From contig NZ_AP014724.1 of the NCBI RefSeq assembly GCF_001548055.1, positions 496,001-560,000 of the forward strand: a DNA stretch of 64,000 nucleotides. The letters are read 5' to 3'. Below the pieces are notes generated by a model that worked only from the letters and a program-made list of their open reading frames with translations, was not told the DNA's origin and did no database searches. The position numbers and the translations under genes are program-made. The DNA comes from Sulfurospirillum cavolei. Its GTDB lineage: Bacteria > Campylobacterota > Campylobacteria > Campylobacterales > Sulfurospirillaceae. Shown piece after piece: positions 5,541-34,406 of this stretch (positions are counted from its first letter, which is position 1; every line of letters starts with the position of its first letter).

Positions 5541-6941
5541 TCATAATACAGAATTGTTTGAAGGCAATTTAAACGAAAAATCAGATCCGACGCCTAAGCT
5601 ACTTTGTATCTCCAAAGCGGTGTTGTGCAGTTTTAAGATGTAACTCACGAGGGCGAGTCCAAGCCCCATCGAATTGTCCCATGAATGCGAGTTGGAGCGG
5701 TAAAATTTGTGGGTAATTTTTTCGATCTCTTCTTCTTTGATGCCGATGCCTTGATCTTTGACATGTAAGACGTCTTCTTCGATGCTTAGGCTGATCGTAT
5801 CGTCGGAATATTTGAGTGCGTTGTCGATGAGATTGGAGACGACGATCTCCATCATCGTGCGGTCCGCATAGATACTGTAGGTTTCGGGAAGAAGGCAAAC
5901 GATGTTGCGCGAAGGGTTTTTTTCGCGAAAGCTTTGCGCGACGTCGCCGAGGACTTTCACGATGTCGAACGTACTGTTTTGCGCGGTAAAATCGCCGTTT
6001 TCAAATTTGGTCGTTAGTGTTAAACGGTCGATCATCGTGGAGATTTTTTGCGCATTTTGCGCGATTTTGCCTAAAAAGCGCTCTTTAATTTGCATGTTCG
6101 CGTTGGGATCGTCAAGCAGCGTTTGCGCATAGCCGACGATAGAGGCGATCGGGTTTTTAAATTCGTGGCTGATGGCGGAGATGACGTCGCTTCGCTGTTG
6201 GGAAATGAGCTTGATTTTGGCGGTGTACTTGCGTTTTTGTTTGGCACGTTTTTCCAGTTTCGCGGCAAGCTTTTTCAAGTAGTTGGCAATTTCGAAAAAT
6301 TCCAAGCTAAAGTGCGACGAAATCGTGATGCGGTACTCTTTATCGGCGATTTGTTGAAGGTTCTCGACGATTTTATCGATCTCTTGTCGTATTTTTTTAC
6401 TGAAAAGATACGCGCCGTAAAGCCCCGCAAGAAGCGCACTACCGAAGATGAGCGTCAGTTTTGTCCATAAGGCGTAAAAGTTGTGCATAATCGTATCGAT
6501 GTTGATCGCAAGGCGTAAAAAATAGGTTTGATCGTGCATCGAAAAACGGTGAGCGACGTACAAAAGGGTACTACCCAGCGTGTCCGAAAAACGTGAAGAG
6601 GTTCCAAAAGGCGTCTTTTCGGATTTGAGTATTTCTTCGCGGTGAAGGTGGTTGTCCATCGTCTCTTTGTCGTGGTCGCTGTCGGCGACGACCGCGCCTT
6701 TGGCGTCGATGAGCGTAAAGCGAATCTGCGTCGCCTCTTTAAAACGTTTGGCAAAAGCATTCAGGTCGTCCATCTCGGGGAGTTCGCGCACCAAAATTTG
6801 GATGTGCGATTCTAAGCGGCTTTGGTAATGCTCCATATTGTCGTTTTGAATCGCGACGTAACTCACGATGCCGCACAGAAGCAAGGTTGCGATAAACAGG
6901 GCGATAAACGAGCGAACGATGTGTTGATGAAGCATTAGCAT
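5541..6941 (-). CDS. phoR: Phosphate-sensor histidine kinase, PhoR-like
   Basis: 466 residues from the start chosen here. A membrane helix near 5-28, an extracytoplasmic region of about 130 residues and a second helix (LIFGSALLAGLYGAYLF) precede the kinase core. The HisKA box is ISHEFKNPIASIVGYA with His near 259. The ATPase motifs are NLIDNALKYS (N box), KDQGIGI (G1, near 400) and SMGLGLALV (G2). The start 6941 has AGGA eight bases upstream; 6935 would give a one-base overlap with the stop of phoB. It is assigned to phosphate sensing because it follows phoU and phoB in one minus-strand operon behind a Pho-box promoter. Confidence 0.82.
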   Translation of the reverse strand: MLMLHQHIVRSFIALFIATLLLCGIVSYVAIQNDNMEHYQSRLESHIQILVRELPEMDDLNAFAKRFKEATQIRFTLIDAKGAVVADSDHDKETMDNHLHREEILKSEKTPFGTSSRFSDTLGSTLLYVAHRFSMHDQTYFLRLAINIDTIMHNFYALWTKLTLIFGSALLAGLYGAYLFSKKIRQEIDKIVENLQQIADKEYRITISSHFSLEFFEIANYLKKLAAKLEKRAKQKRKYTAKIKLISQQRSDVISAISHEFKNPIASIVGYAQTLLDDPNANMQIKERFLGKIAQNAQKISTMIDRLTLTTKFENGDFTAQNSTFDIVKVLGDVAQSFREKNPSRNIVCLLPETYSIYADRTMMEIVVSNLIDNALKYSDDTISLSIEEDVLHVKDQGIGIKEEEIEKITHKFYRSNSHSWDNSMGLGLALVSYILKLHNTALEIQSSLGVGSDFSFKLPSNNSVL

Positions 6942-7606
6942 AAACTGTATCCTACGCCCCAAATCGATTTGATGTACTCTTTTTCTTTGGTGGGGTCAAT
7001 CTTTTGTTTGAGGCGGTTGATGGCGACGTTGACCGTTTTATCTTGGAAAAAGTCGTCGTTTTTCCAGACGTGTTCGAGTAAAAATTCGCGACTCAAGACC
7101 GAACTTTTGTTTTCGATAAGCGTGCGCAAAAGATCAAATTCGAGTTTGGTGAGTTCTACGGCTTTGGCATCGACGTGAAGCGTGTGGGCGTTCAAATCCA
7201 AGACCAAATCGCGGTACGACAAAAGAGCGTTGTTTTGCGGAGAAGTCCGCGCTAAAACCGCTTTGATGCGAAGGAGGAGTTCTTTCATATTGTAAGGTTT
7301 GGTAACGTAGTCGTCGCCGCCGCGTAAAAATCCTTCTTCGACGTTTGTATCGCTGTTTTTAGCGGTTACGAAAATGACGGCTTGGGTAAAACCTTTTTTG
7401 CGTAGGCTCTCGACAAATTCGCTGCCTTCGATTCCCGGAAGGTTGCGATCGACGATTAATAAGTCGATCGGCTCTTCGTTCAGACACTTTTCGACGTTTT
7501 TCGTGTTTAAAAATCCGAGCGTTTCGTAGCCTTCTTTTTGCAGATGGTACTCCAAAAGCTCCAGTAAATCCTCTTCGTCTTCAATAATCAAAATGCTTTG
7601 TTTCAT
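6935..7606 (-). CDS. phoB: Phosphate response regulator, PhoB-like (OmpR family)
   Basis: 223 residues. The receiver domain (about 1-120) carries the acidic pocket at residues 9-13, the phospho-acceptor D53 in LIVDRNLPG, and a lysine in YVTKPYN near 104. The C-terminal winged helix (about 130-223) ends in KTVNVAINRLKQKIDP and KSIWGVGYSL, typical of OmpR/PhoB DNA-binding domains. It lies between phoU and phoR and overlaps phoR by seven bases. I infer that it binds the 11-bp direct repeats found before five transcription units here. Confidence 0.87.
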   Translation of the reverse strand: MKQSILIIEDEEDLLELLEYHLQKEGYETLGFLNTKNVEKCLNEEPIDLLIVDRNLPGIEGSEFVESLRKKGFTQAVIFVTAKNSDTNVEEGFLRGGDDYVTKPYNMKELLLRIKAVLARTSPQNNALLSYRDLVLDLNAHTLHVDAKAVELTKLEFDLLRTLIENKSSVLSREFLLEHVWKNDDFFQDKTVNVAINRLKQKIDPTKEKEYIKSIWGVGYSLC

Positions 7607-7673: not shown

Positions 7674-8342
7674 TTAATACGTTTTCATCTCTCCGCCCAC
7701 GCGCGCGAAAATCATCAGTTGTACGATGCTCACGCTGCGATCCGCCATACGCTCTAATTTGCGCATCGTACTTAAAATCTGAATAAAATCGGCGGATTGG
7801 TCGATCAATTTGGCGATGTCGCTTAAAATATTTTTTTCCAAAATCGAGTAAAGATCGTCGCTTTTGCTCTCTTCGACTTTGACGCGGCGGTAGGTCTCTT
7901 CCAAGGCTTCGCGGTCGCTGACGCTCAATGTTCCGATCGAAAGCGTTACCGCATGAATCGCCGTTTTGCAAAGGTGCATAGAGTATTCGTGAAGGGTCGT
8001 AAAGGGAATTTCGCTTTGGAGATGAGCGATCATACGTTTGCTGAAGCTGCGAATATTTTCGGCTATCTTAACCAATTCGTTCGTGATTTTTAAAAAAGCG
8101 ACCATTTTACGTAGATCTTTGGCTTCGGGTCCAAAAAGTGCTAAAGCGACGACGATTTCGTTATCGATGGCGTTGGCTTGCGCTTCGACGTTTTTAAGAA
8201 GCGTTCGAGCCGATTCAAAGCGGGAGATATCTAAATTTTCGATACCGCAAAGCGCTTTTTCGCCTGCCATCGTGATTTCGGAGCCGAGATCTAAGAGCAT
8301 TTGCTTGATTTGAGCAAGTCTCTCTTCGTATTTTTGAAGCAT
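7674..8342 (-). CDS. phoU: PhoU-type phosphate signalling regulator
   Basis: 222 residues, helical throughout, as two repeats of the PhoU three-helix unit. Metal-cluster-type acidic patches appear as EAQANAIDNEIVVALAL near 52-68 and KVEESKSDDLYSILE in the second half. PhoU links the PstSCAB transporter to PhoR and restrains phosphate uptake. It is the first gene of the minus-strand phoU-phoB-phoR unit, 67 bp before phoB, and has a Pho-box promoter immediately upstream (8370-8401). Confidence 0.88.
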   Translation of the reverse strand: MLQKYEERLAQIKQMLLDLGSEITMAGEKALCGIENLDISRFESARTLLKNVEAQANAIDNEIVVALALFGPEAKDLRKMVAFLKITNELVKIAENIRSFSKRMIAHLQSEIPFTTLHEYSMHLCKTAIHAVTLSIGTLSVSDREALEETYRRVKVEESKSDDLYSILEKNILSDIAKLIDQSADFIQILSTMRKLERMADRSVSIVQLMIFARVGGEMKTY

Positions 8343-8369: not shown

Positions 8370-8401
8370 ATTGTAAAGGTAAAACATTACAATATGGTAA
8401 C
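8370..8401 (-). promoter_or_regulatory. Pho-box promoter of phoU-phoB-phoR
   Basis: On the minus strand GTTACCATATTGTAAT (8401-8386) is an 11-bp direct repeat GTWAY-N6-GTWAY. After exactly 10 bp comes TACAAT (8375-8370) as the -10 box. The box therefore takes the place of the -35. The same spacing recurs at four other promoters in this window. Confidence 0.78.
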
Positions 8402-8418: not shown

Positions 8419-8450
8419 GTTACCGTCTTGTAATGAGCCGCTCTTATAAT
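8419..8450 (+). promoter_or_regulatory. Pho-box promoter of olsF
   Basis: GTTACCGTCTTGTAAT (8419-8434) is the 11-bp direct repeat; 10 bp later stands a perfect TATAAT (8445-8450), 30 bp before the olsF start. It is back-to-back with the phoU promoter, leaving 17 bp between the two boxes. Confidence 0.8.
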
Positions 8451-8480: not shown

Positions 8481-10196
8481 ATGGTTGACGTCGAAAAAAC
8501 CTTAAGCCTTAAATATCCTCGCATCGTCTATTATCCCGCCGTGATTCGTAATCTCATCGTTTATTGTTTAAAAAAAGTCTTGCATCAAGACGAGATTAAC
8601 GACTTTTTAATTCACGGTGAGGCGTATCGGGGTTTTGATTTTGTGGAAGCGGTTTTAGAGTACTTCAACTTCGGTTATACGGTTTCCAATAAAGATAAAG
8701 CGAATATTCCCTCTTCAGGACGCGTGATTATCGTCGCAAACCATCCTTTAGGCGCACTCGACGCATTGGCTTTGATCTCGCTCGTCAAAGAGGTTCGCCG
8801 AGACGTTAAAGTGCTTGCCAACGACGTTTTGATGCAAATTGAGCCTTTAAACGCGTTATTGATTCCGATCGACAATTTAAGCGGAACGACGGCGAAAGAG
8901 TCGATAAAAAAGGTGTACGATGCCTTGGAAAACGACGAAGCCCTCATCGTGTTTCCTTCCGGCGAAGTGTCGCGTGCGCAACCGACGGGGATTAAAGATA
9001 CGAAGTGGAAAAAAGGGTTTTTGAAATTTGCGCAAAAAACCAATTCGCCGATCTTGCCTGTTTTTATCGACGCCAAAAATTCGCCGCTTTTTTACACCCT
9101 TTCGATGGTCAATAAAAAACTCTCCACCTTTTTGCTGGCGCGCGAGATGTTCAAAAAACGCTCCAAAATCATTCACTTCAAAATCGGCGAGATGATTGCC
9201 TATAAGACGATCGAGAAGTCGGGGTTTAGCGACCATACGGTGCTCAATTTGCTCAAAAAGCATCTATATAAAATCAGTAAAGGCAAGAAAGGACTTTTCA
9301 GTACCCAAACGGCGATCGCGCATCCTGAGGAGCGTAAAGCCATTCGTGCGGAATTGAAAAAATCGACGCTTCTAGGCGAGACGAACGACGGTAAAAAAAT
9401 CTTTTTGTACGAATGCGAAGAGGGGTCGATTTTGATGAAAGAGATCGGAAGGCTTAGGGAGTATACGTTTCGCAAAGTCGAAGAAGGGACCGGTTATAAG
9501 CGCGACGTAGACGCTTTTGATAAGCACTACAAACATATCGTTTTATGGGACGATGAAGAGCTGGAAGTCGTAGGGGCATACCGTATCGGCGAGGCGGATT
9601 TTATTGCTCGGTATTTCGGCGTGGAGGGATTTTATTCGCATACGCTTTTTGAATTTACCGACGCTTTCGAGCCTTACATGCACAATGCGATTGAGCTGGG
9701 ACGAAGCTTCGTACAGCCGCGTTATTGGGGAACGAGGGCATTGGATTATCTCTGGCAAGGTATCGGTGCGTATTTGTACCAAAATCCGCATGTGCGTTAC
9801 ATGTACGGTCCGGTAAGCCTGAGCGACGTCTATACGAAAATCGCGAAAAATCTGATCGTGACGTTTTATTCACTCTATTTTTCGACTTCCAAAGAGCTTG
9901 TGCGAGCACGAAGCGGCTTTTTTATGAGCAAGGCGGAAAAAGAAGAAGCTCTCTCTTTCTTCGGCGGAAAAGATTACAAAGAGGATTTCGCCGTTTTAAA
10001 AGAGCAGCTTTCGCATATGGATTTAAGCGTGCCGACCTTGTATAAACAGTACACCGAATTGTGTGAAGAGGGCGGTATTTTATTTTTGGATTTTAACATC
10101 GACAAAGACTTTTCCAACTGTGTCGACAGTTTTATCTTAGTCGACATCGCCAAGATCAAAGAGGCAAAAAAGGCACGCTATATCAAAGGGGCATAG
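8481..10196 (+). CDS. olsF: OlsF-like bifunctional ornithine lipid synthase (two acyltransferase domains)
   Basis: 571 residues. The N-terminal half is a PlsC/OlsA-type acyltransferase with the HX4D motif NHPLGALD near 87-94 and FPSGE near 158. The C-terminal half (about 300-520) is the GNAT-like OlsB/hemolysin acetyltransferase type, seen in FDKHYKHIVL, VVGAYRIG, ELGRSFVQPRYW and MYGPVSLSD. This O-acyl plus N-acyl domain order is that of Serratia OlsF, which makes ornithine lipid from ornithine and two acyl chains. Its own Pho-box promoter and position beside phoU-phoB-phoR fit a phosphorus-free membrane lipid made under phosphate limitation. A generic acyltransferase fusion is the alternative. 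Confidence 0.82.
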   Translation: MVDVEKTLSLKYPRIVYYPAVIRNLIVYCLKKVLHQDEINDFLIHGEAYRGFDFVEAVLEYFNFGYTVSNKDKANIPSSGRVIIVANHPLGALDALALISLVKEVRRDVKVLANDVLMQIEPLNALLIPIDNLSGTTAKESIKKVYDALENDEALIVFPSGEVSRAQPTGIKDTKWKKGFLKFAQKTNSPILPVFIDAKNSPLFYTLSMVNKKLSTFLLAREMFKKRSKIIHFKIGEMIAYKTIEKSGFSDHTVLNLLKKHLYKISKGKKGLFSTQTAIAHPEERKAIRAELKKSTLLGETNDGKKIFLYECEEGSILMKEIGRLREYTFRKVEEGTGYKRDVDAFDKHYKHIVLWDDEELEVVGAYRIGEADFIARYFGVEGFYSHTLFEFTDAFEPYMHNAIELGRSFVQPRYWGTRALDYLWQGIGAYLYQNPHVRYMYGPVSLSDVYTKIAKNLIVTFYSLYFSTSKELVRARSGFFMSKAEKEEALSFFGGKDYKEDFAVLKEQLSHMDLSVPTLYKQYTELCEEGGILFLDFNIDKDFSNCVDSFILVDIAKIKEAKKARYIKGA

Positions 10197-20682: not shown

Positions 20683-21684
20683 TTATTTTGCGCCGTTGGT
20701 TTTCAAGTAAGCTTCGATGGCTTCTACGGTCGGTTTAGGAAGTGGGATATAGCCCAATTTTTCAGCTTCCGCCGCACCTTTTTCAAACGCGAACGTAAAG
20801 AATTTTGAGACTTCTTTGTTTTCAGCCGCTTTTTCTTGAGGTAAAAGAATAAACGTTGCCGCTACGATCGGATAGGTCGTTTTACCCGGTTGAGACGCAA
20901 GGATTTGATAAAAGCCCTCTTCGCCTTTCCATTTTGCGTTCGCCGCAGCTGCCATAATATTTTCGGTCGTCGCTTTTACCCACGTACCTTCGGCACTTTG
21001 AAGCGTTGCCATCGGAAGGTTATTTTTTGCGGCATATGCCGTTTCGATATAACCGATAGAGCCCGGAGTTTGTTTGATCATATTGGTCACGCCTTCGTTA
21101 CCTTTTCCGCCGATACCCACAGGCCATTGAACGGTTTTACCCAAGCCCACTTTTTCATGCCATGTTTTACCCATTTTATCGAGCCAGTAGGTAAAGTTCC
21201 ATGTCGTACCGCTTCCGTCAGATCGATACGCAATCGTGATTGTTTTATCCGGAAGAGCTACGCCTGCGTTGTCCGCGGCAATTTTAGGATCGTTCCATTT
21301 GGTAATCGTGCCTAAGAAAATTTCTTCGACGACGGCATTGGAAAGCTTGACTTCTTTGCCTTCAAGTTCGGGAAGGTTGTACGCTAAACAGATAGCACCG
21401 ACGACGGCAGGAAATTGAAGAAGTTTGCTCTCGCCCAAGCGTTTAGCTTCAAGCGGTTCATCGGAAGCTCCGAAATCCACCGTACGCGCTTCGATTTGTT
21501 TAATACCGCCGCCGGAACCGATAGATTGATAATTGACTTGTACGCCGGTTTGTGCTTGGTAATCGTGCGCCCATTTATAATAGATCGGAGCCGGAAAGCT
21601 AGCACCCGCGCCGTTGATTTTATCTGCCGCTACAAGGCTGACTGCCGCTAGAGCTGAAAGAAGTAACATTCTATTCATCTTCAT
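20683..21684 (-). CDS. pstS: Periplasmic phosphate-binding protein PstS
   Basis: 333 residues with a signal peptide (about 1-20, LLLSALAAVSLVAA). INGAGASFPAPIY near 24-36, SIGSGGGIKQI near 54-64 and VDFGASDEPL near 69-78 form the phosphate pocket seen in PstS; RSDGSGTTWNFT near 153-164 supplies further ligands. It scavenges phosphate in the periplasm and hands it to PstCA. AGGGG lies eight bases before the ATG. First gene of the pst operon, driven by a Pho-box promoter at 21724-21755. Confidence 0.96.
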   Translation of the reverse strand: MKMNRMLLLSALAAVSLVAADKINGAGASFPAPIYYKWAHDYQAQTGVQVNYQSIGSGGGIKQIEARTVDFGASDEPLEAKRLGESKLLQFPAVVGAICLAYNLPELEGKEVKLSNAVVEEIFLGTITKWNDPKIAADNAGVALPDKTITIAYRSDGSGTTWNFTYWLDKMGKTWHEKVGLGKTVQWPVGIGGKGNEGVTNMIKQTPGSIGYIETAYAAKNNLPMATLQSAEGTWVKATTENIMAAAANAKWKGEEGFYQILASQPGKTTYPIVAATFILLPQEKAAENKEVSKFFTFAFEKGAAEAEKLGYIPLPKPTVEAIEAYLKTNGAK

Positions 21685-21723: not shown

Positions 21724-21755
21724 ATTCTAATAGGAATTGGTTACCGTTTGATTAC
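21724..21755 (-). promoter_or_regulatory. Pho-box promoter of pstSCAB
   Basis: On the minus strand GTAATCAAACGGTAAC (21755-21740) is the 11-bp direct repeat. It is followed by exactly 10 bp and TAGAAT (21729-21724), 40 bp before the pstS start. Confidence 0.8.
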
Positions 21756-21797: not shown

Positions 21798-21829
21798 GTA
21801 ATCACACCGTAATGAAATCCCTTTAATAT
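21798..21829 (+). promoter_or_regulatory. Pho-box promoter of the second pstS operon
   Basis: GTAATCACACCGTAAT (21798-21813) is a direct repeat with identical GTAAT halves, followed by 10 bp and TAATAT (21824-21829). It is divergent from the pstSCAB promoter, and two ACATGT palindromes lie between them. Confidence 0.78.
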
Positions 21830-21940: not shown

Positions 21941-22981
21941 ATGAACATGTCAAAACGTGCTATCGTGTGGTTGTTGGGCATTGCCTCTTTAAGCGGCGTT
22001 GCCGTTGCGAGAGATCAAATTTATATCGTCGGTTCTTCGACGGTTTATCCGTTTACGACCTACGTTGCCAAGGCATTTGCCGCGAAAAGCAATCCGCTTC
22101 CGCGCGTCGAGTCGACCGGAACGGGCGGAGGAATGAAACTGTTTTGTGCCGGCGTAGGCCCCGATACGCCCGATATAACGAATGCTTCACGCCCGATGAA
22201 GCAAAGCGAATATGAAACGTGCGTCAAAAACGGCGTGAGCGACATTACCGGTATGAAAGTCGGATTTGACGGCATCGTATTTGCCCATTCACAAAAAAAT
22301 CCCGACATATCGCTGACGCGCGAACAGATTTTTCTAGCACTTGCCGAAGAAGTGCCCTCTAAAGACGGCAAAAGCTTGGTCAAAAATCCGTATAAAACAT
22401 GGAATGAAATCGACCCTTCGCTTCCCAATCGCAAAATCGTCGTTTACGGCCCTCCGACAACTTCGGGAACGCGCGATTCTTTCGAAGAGATGGTCATGGA
22501 GCATGCTTCTAAACATTTTGACGCGTACGGCGATCAAAAAGGTAAATACAAAGCCATTCGCCAAGACGATGTGTATGTTCCCGCGGCGGAAAACGATGAT
22601 TTGGTCGTGCGTAAACTGACAAAAGACCTCGAAGCGTTCGGTATTTTCGGTTATAGCTATCTTGAAGAGAACGCCGATAAAATCCAAGGCGCACACGTCG
22701 ACGGCAAAGACCCCACTTTTCAAACGATCTCTTCGGGCGAATACCCGATCGCGCGAGGGTTGTATCTTTACATCAAAAACGCCCACCGAAACGACGTTAA
22801 AGGCATGGAAGCGTTCATTAAATTGTACACGAACGCAAACATGATAGGTCTCAAAGGAGCACTGCAACGCATCGGCTTGATTCCGATGGACGAGCGCGAA
22901 TTGAAAAAAGTGCAAGTCGCCGTTTGGGCTCAAACCAAACTGACCGAAGCGATGGTCAAGAAAAATACGATTTTACCCTAA
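21941..22981 (+). CDS. Second PstS-family phosphate-binding protein
   Basis: 346 residues with a signal peptide (about 1-24). IVGSSTVYPFTTYVA near 29-43, STGTGGGMKLFCAG near 60-73 and TNASRPMKQSE near 82-92 are pocket motifs of the PstS family; PTTSGTRDSFEEM near 173-185 supplies the SGT ligands. The sequence is clearly different from the first PstS, closer to the type with VGSSTV and long inserts. It has no permease of its own here, so it may feed the same PstCA or act as a scavenger or sensor. AAGGAG stands seven bases before the start; a Pho box lies upstream. Confidence 0.87.
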   Translation: MNMSKRAIVWLLGIASLSGVAVARDQIYIVGSSTVYPFTTYVAKAFAAKSNPLPRVESTGTGGGMKLFCAGVGPDTPDITNASRPMKQSEYETCVKNGVSDITGMKVGFDGIVFAHSQKNPDISLTREQIFLALAEEVPSKDGKSLVKNPYKTWNEIDPSLPNRKIVVYGPPTTSGTRDSFEEMVMEHASKHFDAYGDQKGKYKAIRQDDVYVPAAENDDLVVRKLTKDLEAFGIFGYSYLEENADKIQGAHVDGKDPTFQTISSGEYPIARGLYLYIKNAHRNDVKGMEAFIKLYTNANMIGLKGALQRIGLIPMDERELKKVQVAVWAQTKLTEAMVKKNTILP

Positions 22982-23027
22982 GCTATCTTGCCTTCGATAG
23001 GGCACGCTTTTAGAAAGGAAACACGGA

Positions 23028-23837
23028 ATGCAACGAACGATTTTAGGATGCGCTTTTGCGTTGGTAGGCACGGTAGCCCTCACGATTGCAGGCGTCCATG
23101 TCATGCAATCGCAAAGCCCCTCTCAAACGCAAAAAGCGACGCTTGAGACGCTTCATTCGATGAGCCCGACGCTTATGAAGTTACGTTTGGACGTGAAAGA
23201 GTATATGATCGTCCAAGATAAAAAATACCTGATCGATTTCGATCAAGAAGCCAAACGTCTGTACGCGCTCTTAGACACTTTGGACGCGCAATCGTCTCAG
23301 GACAAAAACCGTGCGCAAACGATCGATGCCTTGCGTCGCGATATGCAAGCTTTCGATCGTTTGTTCAAAGCGATCATCGCGCTTGAAGAAGAGAATGCCA
23401 AGATTGAAGTGGAGATTTTCGCCAAGTACGATGCGTTATTGGAAGAGCATCCCAACCGTATTTTGTTTCAGGCGTTTACCGATAACGATCCGATGAGCGG
23501 CAACAGTGCGGCGCATCTTTTAGACGCGGCGTTGAAGTATAAACTGGCCGTGGCGTCGTATTCGCTCAATAACAGTGAATTTTTCTTGATTCGAACCAAA
23601 GAGATGAAAGATCTCGTTAAAAAGCATGCCGACAAGATCGAGCTTTTAGTCGACAATAAAGAGAGCGTTAAACGCATTAAAGCCTTTAAAGAGGTTTTCG
23701 AGACCTATACGCAAGGGTTCGATCGTTTGGCAAGCAACATTCAAGCCAAACGTAAAAACGTGAGCGATGCCTTTGACGACGTGGTACCGCGTATGATGAG
23801 CCGTTCGCAGGCTCTTTTGTTTGCATCGGAGAAATAA
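23028..23837 (+). CDS. Membrane-anchored helical sensor-like protein without output domain
   Basis: 269 residues. One N-terminal membrane helix or signal anchor (about 4-26) precedes a wholly helical domain of about 240 residues, with heptad-like stretches such as MKLRLDVKEYMIVQDKKYLIDFDQEAKRLYALLD. The layout resembles the bimodular four-helix ligand domains of chemoreceptors and sensor kinases, but there is no second membrane segment, HAMP or signalling domain, and the protein simply ends. It is 46 bp after the second pstS and probably shares its Pho-box promoter. I do not recognise a named family; it could pass a binding signal to a separate receptor. Confidence 0.6.
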   Translation: MQRTILGCAFALVGTVALTIAGVHVMQSQSPSQTQKATLETLHSMSPTLMKLRLDVKEYMIVQDKKYLIDFDQEAKRLYALLDTLDAQSSQDKNRAQTIDALRRDMQAFDRLFKAIIALEEENAKIEVEIFAKYDALLEEHPNRILFQAFTDNDPMSGNSAAHLLDAALKYKLAVASYSLNNSEFFLIRTKEMKDLVKKHADKIELLVDNKESVKRIKAFKEVFETYTQGFDRLASNIQAKRKNVSDAFDDVVPRMMSRSQALLFASEK

Positions 23838-32574: not shown

Positions 32575-32606
32575 GTAACAATTCGGTAATCGCTTTAGCG
32601 TAAAAT
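32575..32606 (+). promoter_or_regulatory. Pho-box promoter of the EAL-GGDEF gene
   Basis: GTAACAATTCGGTAAT (32575-32590) is the 11-bp direct repeat; after exactly 10 bp comes TAAAAT (32601-32606), 31 bp before the start. The box overlaps a GACATGTAA palindrome. Confidence 0.7.
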
Positions 32607-32636
32607 TCTTCCATTTCAATGGAGGAGTCACGTCAC

Positions 32637-34406
32637 ATGTTAAACGAGCGATGGCAAAAACTCATTGAGGTCGCCGATTTTGCGTTTCAGCCGATTGTCA
32701 ATATTTATACGGGAAGGCTTTACGCCGTTGAGGCGTTGATTCGTAATTACGAAGCGGCGGATTTTAATACGATTGATGCCGTTTTTGATACCGCCTTTAG
32801 CGAAAAAGTGCTTTACAGCGTCGACATTAAGCTCCGTGAAAAAGCCATTCACAAATTTTCGTTACTTCCTTTTGCCAAACATGTCAAACTTTTTTACAAT
32901 CTCGACAACCGCATTACGATGATGCCCGATTTTAAATCCGGTTATACATGTGAGCTTTTAAGCACTTACGATATGGACTTTTCGAACATCTGTTTCGAAC
33001 TTTCGGAAAAGCATCAAGTCGGTATGTACGCGGGCGTGGATAAACTCGTGCTCAATTTGTACAAGCAACAAGGCTATAAAATGGCGATCGATGATTTCGG
33101 AGTGGGCTTTTCCGGACTTCAGATGCTTTTTCATGCCGAACCCGATTTTATCAAAATCGACCGTTTTTTTATCAACGACATTCATAAAAGCAAGAAGAAA
33201 AAACTCTTCGTCGGTTCCATCGTTCAGATCGCGCAGGCGATGGGTATTTTTACGATCGTCGAGGGTTTAGAGTGCGAAGAGGAGTATATCGAATGTAAAA
33301 AACTCGGTTGCAATATGGTGCAAGGCTATTTCGTGCAACGCCCGACGCTAAACGTCTGGGAAATTATGCCTTCCTATGAACATGTCAAAAATATTTCGCA
33401 AAACGAGAAACGCAAAAACGGGAAGATTTCCAATATCGAAAAGTACATTCAAAAAAGCCATCCCGTTTTTGTGGATTCGCATATTAACGAAGTATACGAA
33501 CTTTTACGCGGTGACAAAAAGACCCATTTCGTGCCGGTTTTGGCGCGCGATTGGACGCCGATGGGCATTATTAAAGACTCCGACATCAAGTCTTACATGT
33601 ACTCCAATTACGGTAAGTCGCTTTTGTACAACATCACTCAAGGTAGCTTGAAAAATATCGTTTCGCATTGTGGACGCGCCGACATCAACGATCCGTTGGA
33701 TAAAATTTTGAAAATTTACGCCTTTGACGACGATAACGACGCTATCTTGATTACCGAAGATGAAAAATACATCGGTTATTTAAGTTCTAAAGTGCTTTTG
33801 GACATCGTCAACGAAAAGAATATCGTCGACGCAAAAGATCAAAATCCGCTCACGGGACTCTCGGGCAATCGCATCATCAACGAATTTGTCGCCAATGCGA
33901 TGGAGAGTAAAGACAAAGTGATGATGGCATATTTCGATTTTGACAATTTTAAACCGTTTAACGATTATTACGGCTTTCGCAAAGGCGATCGCGCTATTAC
34001 GCTTTTTGCCGATATTTTACGCAGTTCGATCGGTTTTGAAGAGTGCTTGATAGGGCATGTCGGCGGAGATGATTTTTTCTTAGGCTGGAATTTAAAAGAA
34101 GAAGATACGTTTGAAAAAGTCTACGCGATCATTTTGGAAATCGTCTCGAAATTTTCCGAAGATATTAAGAGTTTTTATTGCGAACAAGGACTGAGTTCTG
34201 GGTATATTATGGCAAAAAATCGTGAAGGAGCATTGCAAAAATTTCCGCTGATGACGGTAAGCTCTGCAGTCATTTGCCACGGATTCGGCTACCAGCACGA
34301 TTTTGACGATAATGAACTCAATGAAATTTTCGGTGTCTTAAAGAAAACCGCCAAAGCCTCCCTCAACCATATCGCTTGCGTCGATCTGGGCGTGATCAAA
34401 AACTAA
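32637..34406 (+). CDS. EAL - CBS pair - GGDEF c-di-GMP enzyme
   Basis: 589 residues from 32637 (MLNERWQKL); an ATG at 32619 overlaps the ribosome site GGAGGAG, which is nine bases before 32637. The N-terminal EAL domain (about 10-260) keeps EALIR, FYNLDN, FELSEKH, IDDFGVGFSG, FIKIDR and VQGYFVQRP, so phosphodiesterase activity is likely. A tandem CBS-like region (about 275-405) follows, with HFVPVLARDWTPMGIIKDSDI. The C-terminal GGDEF domain has PLTGLSGNR and the motif GGDDF, so synthesis is uncertain, and no RXXD inhibitory site is visible. A Pho-box promoter suggests phosphate control. Confidence 0.87.
   Translation: MLNERWQKLIEVADFAFQPIVNIYTGRLYAVEALIRNYEAADFNTIDAVFDTAFSEKVLYSVDIKLREKAIHKFSLLPFAKHVKLFYNLDNRITMMPDFKSGYTCELLSTYDMDFSNICFELSEKHQVGMYAGVDKLVLNLYKQQGYKMAIDDFGVGFSGLQMLFHAEPDFIKIDRFFINDIHKSKKKKLFVGSIVQIAQAMGIFTIVEGLECEEEYIECKKLGCNMVQGYFVQRPTLNVWEIMPSYEHVKNISQNEKRKNGKISNIEKYIQKSHPVFVDSHINEVYELLRGDKKTHFVPVLARDWTPMGIIKDSDIKSYMYSNYGKSLLYNITQGSLKNIVSHCGRADINDPLDKILKIYAFDDDNDAILITEDEKYIGYLSSKVLLDIVNEKNIVDAKDQNPLTGLSGNRIINEFVANAMESKDKVMMAYFDFDNFKPFNDYYGFRKGDRAITLFADILRSSIGFEECLIGHVGGDDFFLGWNLKEEDTFEKVYAIILEIVSKFSEDIKSFYCEQGLSSGYIMAKNREGALQKFPLMTVSSAVICHGFGYQHDFDDNELNEIFGVLKKTAKASLNHIACVDLGVIKN

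Follow-up and report, generated by a model that had tools for sequence, protein, structure and literature searches.

The EAL-CBS-GGDEF gene of Sulfurospirillum cavolei, located in the 64,000-nucleotide stretch of DNA analyzed here (the window), probably belongs to the Pho regulon and is predicted to encode a phosphodiesterase of the RapA/PA3258 family that would be induced via PhosR, with LapD as the likely route of its output. The features found in the sequence are a box with its regulon context and conservation, intact EAL residues, genes for LapD, LapG, and secretion, and an adhesin carrying TAAG.

The box and -10 element upstream of the gene read GTAACaattcgGTAATcgctttagcgTAAAAT (32575-32606, + strand). 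The same layout, an 11-bp direct repeat followed after 10 bp by a -10 element, was common to the pstS, second pstS-like, phoU, and olsF promoters of the window; the gene thus has the direct repeat at the fixed distance from -10 that is seen at pst promoters. A preliminary description of this DNA, made from the letters alone, had given coordinates that proved exact and had matched repeat, spacing, and -10 to the pst and olsF promoters, in agreement with our results. The canonical Pho box of Escherichia coli (CTGTCAT-N4-CTGTCAT) was not present at the c-di-GMP gene, indicating that the box there is a local form. When a matrix trained on the other Pho sites was applied, the site scored 10.2 bits and ranked fifth in the window, a score that did not exceed the best match in two of five shuffles. 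Additionally, its spacer and flanks were unlike those of the pst-type Pho sites. On its own, the site is only moderately strong, and its single-site strength, which falls within the shuffle range, was dropped as an argument. Because of this modest matrix score, the case for the box rests on conservation.

To place the site in the genome, we used a strict pattern (GTWAY-N6-GTAAY-N10-TANNNT) and, as the control, the reversed pattern. The strict pattern gave seven matches in the 2.70-Mb genome versus one for the reversed pattern, and 149 versus 40 over 24 genomes of the genus. The seven sites precede five phosphate genes or operons (phoU-phosRS, olsF, pstS, a second pstS-like gene, and phoX), an autotransporter gene, and the EAL-CBS-GGDEF gene. 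The genome has 27 EAL and 51 GGDEF loci, and the strict box was found at the EAL-CBS-GGDEF gene only, with none at the other 26 EAL or 50 GGDEF loci.

Several other genes with this box were noted. The autotransporter-type surface protein has 958 aa (L067:631-3577; G000:C1:2026131+), and its strict Pho box is kept in relatives in G008 and G020. The second PstS-family gene, which is divergent from pstS and has its own Pho box, is followed by a gene for a CHASE3-domain protein (window 21941-23837). Two distinct secreted-protein genes carry the box, namely that of PhoX (L068 and L078) and another conserved gene of 617 aa (L079 and L080). In other members of the genus, the strict pattern marks a phosphonate-binding periplasmic protein gene (L072, L073, and L077) and, together with the -10 element, the gene of a 632-aa dCache chemoreceptor (L069, L070, L071, and L076); the latter suggests that chemotaxis may be under Pho control in these members.

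Within the genus, 21 of 21 genomes with the gene had the box before the orthologue; upstream sequence was complete in 19, masked bases followed the box in one, and the remaining one, G003, has a broken gene copy that still retains the box. In the genus alignment, nine of the 10 half-site positions were invariant versus seven of 72 flanking positions. The box was retained despite a different upstream gene (L008-L010) and despite an insertion of ~140 bp ahead of the gene (L007). Across the order, the gene was found in 107 of the 399 genomes searched. A box plus -10 score of at least 12/13 was reached in 23 of 27 members of family f17, whose second half-site is often GAAAT, in four of seven of the remainder of f1, in one of three of f15, in one of two of f10, and in single members of f4, f6, f13, and f21, but in only three of 30 members of the Arcobacter-like family f9; the shuffle control for this score gave ~0. 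Three f9 genomes (L281, L287, and L290) have a full box ~156-174 nt upstream, and it is mostly lost elsewhere in this family. The pstS promoters in f17, f4, and f9 genomes carry the same element (13/13), indicating that the element is the Pho box of the order. The central claim of the preliminary description, that a Pho box precedes the gene of a c-di-GMP enzyme, is borne out by retention of the box throughout the genus and in further families of the order and by the element shared with the pstS promoters. It had named absence of the box upstream of orthologues as the contrary outcome; every genus orthologue had kept the box.

Coordinates of the features are given in Table 1. The start of the gene is more likely ATG 32637, behind GGAGG, than the first ATG (32619), since orthologues align from there. 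The scores of the EAL and GGDEF domains were well over the cut-off, and the CBS match (23.5 bits versus a cut-off of 24) was found in 20/20 orthologues. Of the CBS pair in the preliminary description, the first repeat is backed by the Pfam match, and the second is recognized by model topology only. In the predicted structure (mean pLDDT 84.5, pTM 0.57), parts corresponding to EAL, CBS-like, and GGDEF domains can be distinguished, with their packing uncertain, and the Foldseek listing for the protein holds EAL matches only and is not informative on the CBS pair.

Table 1 Features of the window discussed in this study.
Feature	Position	Strand	Basis or remark
PhoR/PhosS-like histidine kinase	5541..6962	-	
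PhoB/PhosR-like response regulator that presumably reads the box	6935..7606	-	
PhoU-domain protein	7674..8342	-	
Pho box and -10, phoU-phosR-phosS operon	8370..8401	-	strict pattern, matrix
Pho box and -10, olsF	8419..8450	+	strict pattern, matrix
Bifunctional ornithine lipid synthase OlsF	8481..10196	+	NF052615, 837.9 bits vs cut-off 620
PstS	20683..21684	-	TIGR00975, 361 bits vs cut-off 205
Pho box and -10, pstS (pstSCAB)	21724..21755	-	strict pattern, matrix
Pho box and -10, divergent second PstS-family gene	21798..21829	+	strict pattern, matrix
Pho-box-like direct repeat GTAAC-N6-GTAAT, 11-bp period	32575..32590	+	sequence; conserved in the genus wherever the gene occurs (21/21 genomes)
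-10 element TAAAAT, exactly 10 bp past the repeat, as at pst, phoU, and olsF	32601..32606	+	
Probable ribosome-binding site GGAGG for ATG 32637	32621..32625	+	sequence inspection
EAL-CBS-GGDEF protein, 589 aa (595 aa from first ATG 32619)	32637..34406	+	
EAL domain with intact catalytic and metal residues	32679..33344	+	Foldseek best matches are the EAL enzymes Bd1971, RocR, BifA, and BlrP1
CBS pair	33459..33824	+	first repeat (33459-33599) by Pfam; second by model topology only
GGDEF domain, GGDDF at 34062-34076, without RxxD inhibitory site at the usual place	33846..34214	+	

The order EAL, CBS, GGDEF on one soluble protein, the intact EAL catalytic site, and the Pho box in the promoter, in a lineage-specific sequence, are characteristics of the RapA/PA3258 type that were found here. 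In the EAL domain, E32, N88, E124, D152, K173, E212, and Q229 were invariant in 20/20 orthologues, and each of E121, D153, and E209 is replaced in a single distant member of these 20. The EAL motifs are thus intact, as had been described before, and a phosphodiesterase output of the protein is likely because of this intact site. The preliminary description had also taken GGDDF in place of GGDEF as favoring a phosphodiesterase, a point that we do not retain: GGDDF and the GTP-site residues were invariant in the 20 orthologues, and GGDDF occurs in 116 of the 122 members of the family, which come from several phyla, and in 30/30 Pseudomonas orthologues, indicating a family signature, not decay. 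GGDDF by itself does not rule out cyclase activity. Since the GGDEF domain may be active, the net effect of the enzyme would be condition-dependent.

RapA of Pseudomonas fluorescens is under the control of a Pho box and depletes c-di-GMP when phosphate is low (PMC3032545). The preliminary description had cited it as an example of PhoB control of a c-di-GMP enzyme; RapA is more than an analogue, being described in the literature as a homologue of PA3258, itself an EAL-CBS-GGDEF protein (PMC12900916) and termed a putative RapA orthologue (PMC9394441). The gene was found in 58 of the 59 Pseudomonas genomes searched. A canonical Pho-box-like repeat lies in all 30 of the Pseudomonas upstream regions examined, with a score of at least 11/14 in 28 versus 0.7% in shuffles. 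Among 80 diverse relatives, 15 reached 11/14, compared with a mean of 1.1 and a maximum of 8 over 200 permuted half-sites and with one inside the genes. The relatives in Rhizobiaceae had such a repeat at 11 or better in seven of nine regions examined, and no report of a rhizobial Pho-regulated GGDEF gene was found in the open-access literature. In the family tree, which was built without the RapA sequence, Pseudomonas and Campylobacterota fall in separate clades, and the box state changes at least 18 times, with thresholds that differ by lineage. We therefore put forward only tentatively, at slightly less than an even chance, that Pho control of a RapA-type phosphodiesterase is an old link of Campylobacterota, pseudomonads, and rhizobia, either kept through a change of box or repeatedly gained. 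Each genome encodes dozens of EAL and GGDEF proteins, and repeated gain may mean that this one enzyme suits the task.

A repeat that matches by chance, before a gene expressed independently of phosphate, is extremely improbable. Chance alone would produce about one to two strict matches in each genome, yet the repeat is found at its fixed distance from -10 throughout the genus (21/21) and in several other families. That this conserved repeat is bound by another OmpR-family regulator instead of PhosR is also improbable, if less so. Half-sites of OmpR-family regulators are similar to one another, and such a regulator would fit the low matrix score and the spacer and flanks that differ from pst-type sites. 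However, the half-sites, the 11-bp period, and the exact 10-bp distance to -10 agree with those of the phoU, pst, olsF, and phoX promoters, and the same element stands ahead of both pstS and the c-di-GMP gene in several families.

A Pho-induced gene could instead encode a diguanylate cyclase or a switchable enzyme, so that starvation raises c-di-GMP or sets it by nucleotide levels. We regard this as unlikely, although it deserves somewhat more weight than the preceding explanations. It agrees with the invariant GGDDF and GTP-site residues and with PA3258, which appears to act as a cyclase when its EAL domain is disabled (PMC12900916) and whose Pseudomonas relatives all have GGDDF. Additionally, biofilm of Campylobacter jejuni rose on loss of phoX, an effect that was reversed by phosphate (PMC3197622). 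In contrast, the main EAL residues were invariant in 20/20 orthologues, and RapA and PA3258 are net phosphodiesterases in cells. A Pho-induced phosphodiesterase is therefore the reading that we carry forward.

A candidate output was found elsewhere in the genome. Genes for LapG (a C93 protease), LapD, an LssB-type ABC exporter, HlyD, TolC, and an adhesin adjoin at 1.81-1.83 Mb. LapD has a LapD_MoxY_N domain and a degenerate EAL domain in which the EAL motif and DDFG are lost, and the adhesin has TAAG, a di-alanine site in its N-terminal region, at residue 118. The receptor, protease, type I secretion, and adhesin characteristic of LapD-LapG-LapA are thus all present, and a detachment circuit in the style of RapA-LapD-LapG could be complete in this genome. 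The NCBIfam equivalog cut-offs for LapD and LapG were not reached, indicating a diverged member of the Lap system. A strict Pho box was not found in the lap cluster of the genome, and the open-access literature held no report of a Sulfurospirillum Lap system. The large adhesin (L311:3808-11238, -) is read as three ORFs that overlap in different frames, and its repeats may contain frameshifts, whether genuine or introduced by assembly. LapG was found in only 15 of the 24 genus genomes, so outputs other than Lap detachment must exist.

From these features we infer that PhosR binds the repeat, that starvation induces the gene, and that the protein acts as a net phosphodiesterase coupled to LapD, as follows. 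At low phosphate, the PhoR/PhosS-like kinase would phosphorylate the PhoB/PhosR-like regulator, which would bind the 11-bp direct repeat in place of a -35 element and switch the gene on. The EAL domain would then lower c-di-GMP, with its activity possibly tuned by the CBS pair as a nucleotide input and by the GGDEF domain through GTP binding or as a conditional cyclase. A fall in c-di-GMP, with LapD as the likely receptor, would release LapG, and LapG would cut the surface adhesin at TAAG so that cells detach. By analogy with the RapA case in P. fluorescens, this suggests that Campylobacterota with the boxed gene may leave surfaces when phosphate runs out.

How phosphate acts on c-di-GMP and adhesion has been worked out for RapA, which was studied in a single pseudomonad (PMC3032545). 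The sequence evidence presented here would place the RapA enzyme family behind a phosphate switch across an order of another phylum, with few instances in f9, and in rhizobia. Among the many EAL and GGDEF loci of the genome, it singles out one c-di-GMP enzyme for which signal, trigger, and output can all be predicted, and it opens a direct test of how a transcriptional link has evolved across phyla. The resulting prediction is phosphate-triggered detachment in environmental Campylobacterota.

Compared with the known LapD-LapG-LapA system, the genes here are alike in the LapD_MoxY_N receptor with a degenerate EAL domain, LapG, the type I exporter, and TAAG in the N-terminal region of the adhesin. 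They differ in lying ~1.3 Mb from the c-di-GMP gene, to which they would be coupled, and in the split adhesin. In C. jejuni, a member of the same order, the half-site of PhosR is reportedly GTTTC, which differs from the half-sites found here. Its two-component system PhosS/PhosR regulates pst and phoX when phosphate is low, and the available portions of the two reports name no c-di-GMP enzyme as a PhosR target (PMC3197622 and PMC6250842). From RapA (Pf0-1) and PA3258, the S. cavolei gene is separated by phylum, by clade, and by box, which is CTGTCAT-N4-CTGTCAT there and GTAAY-N6-GTAAY here, and its protein is a predicted one. The evidence nevertheless supports a putative Pho-regulated phosphodiesterase that is of the RapA kind but belongs to another phylum and has a box sequence of its own: a Pseudomonas orthologue aligns with the S. 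cavolei protein over the full length at 28% identity, and common to both lineages are the EAL-CBS-GGDEF order, the Pho-box control, and the phosphodiesterase activity expected at low phosphate (PMC3032545, PMC12900916, and PMC9394441).
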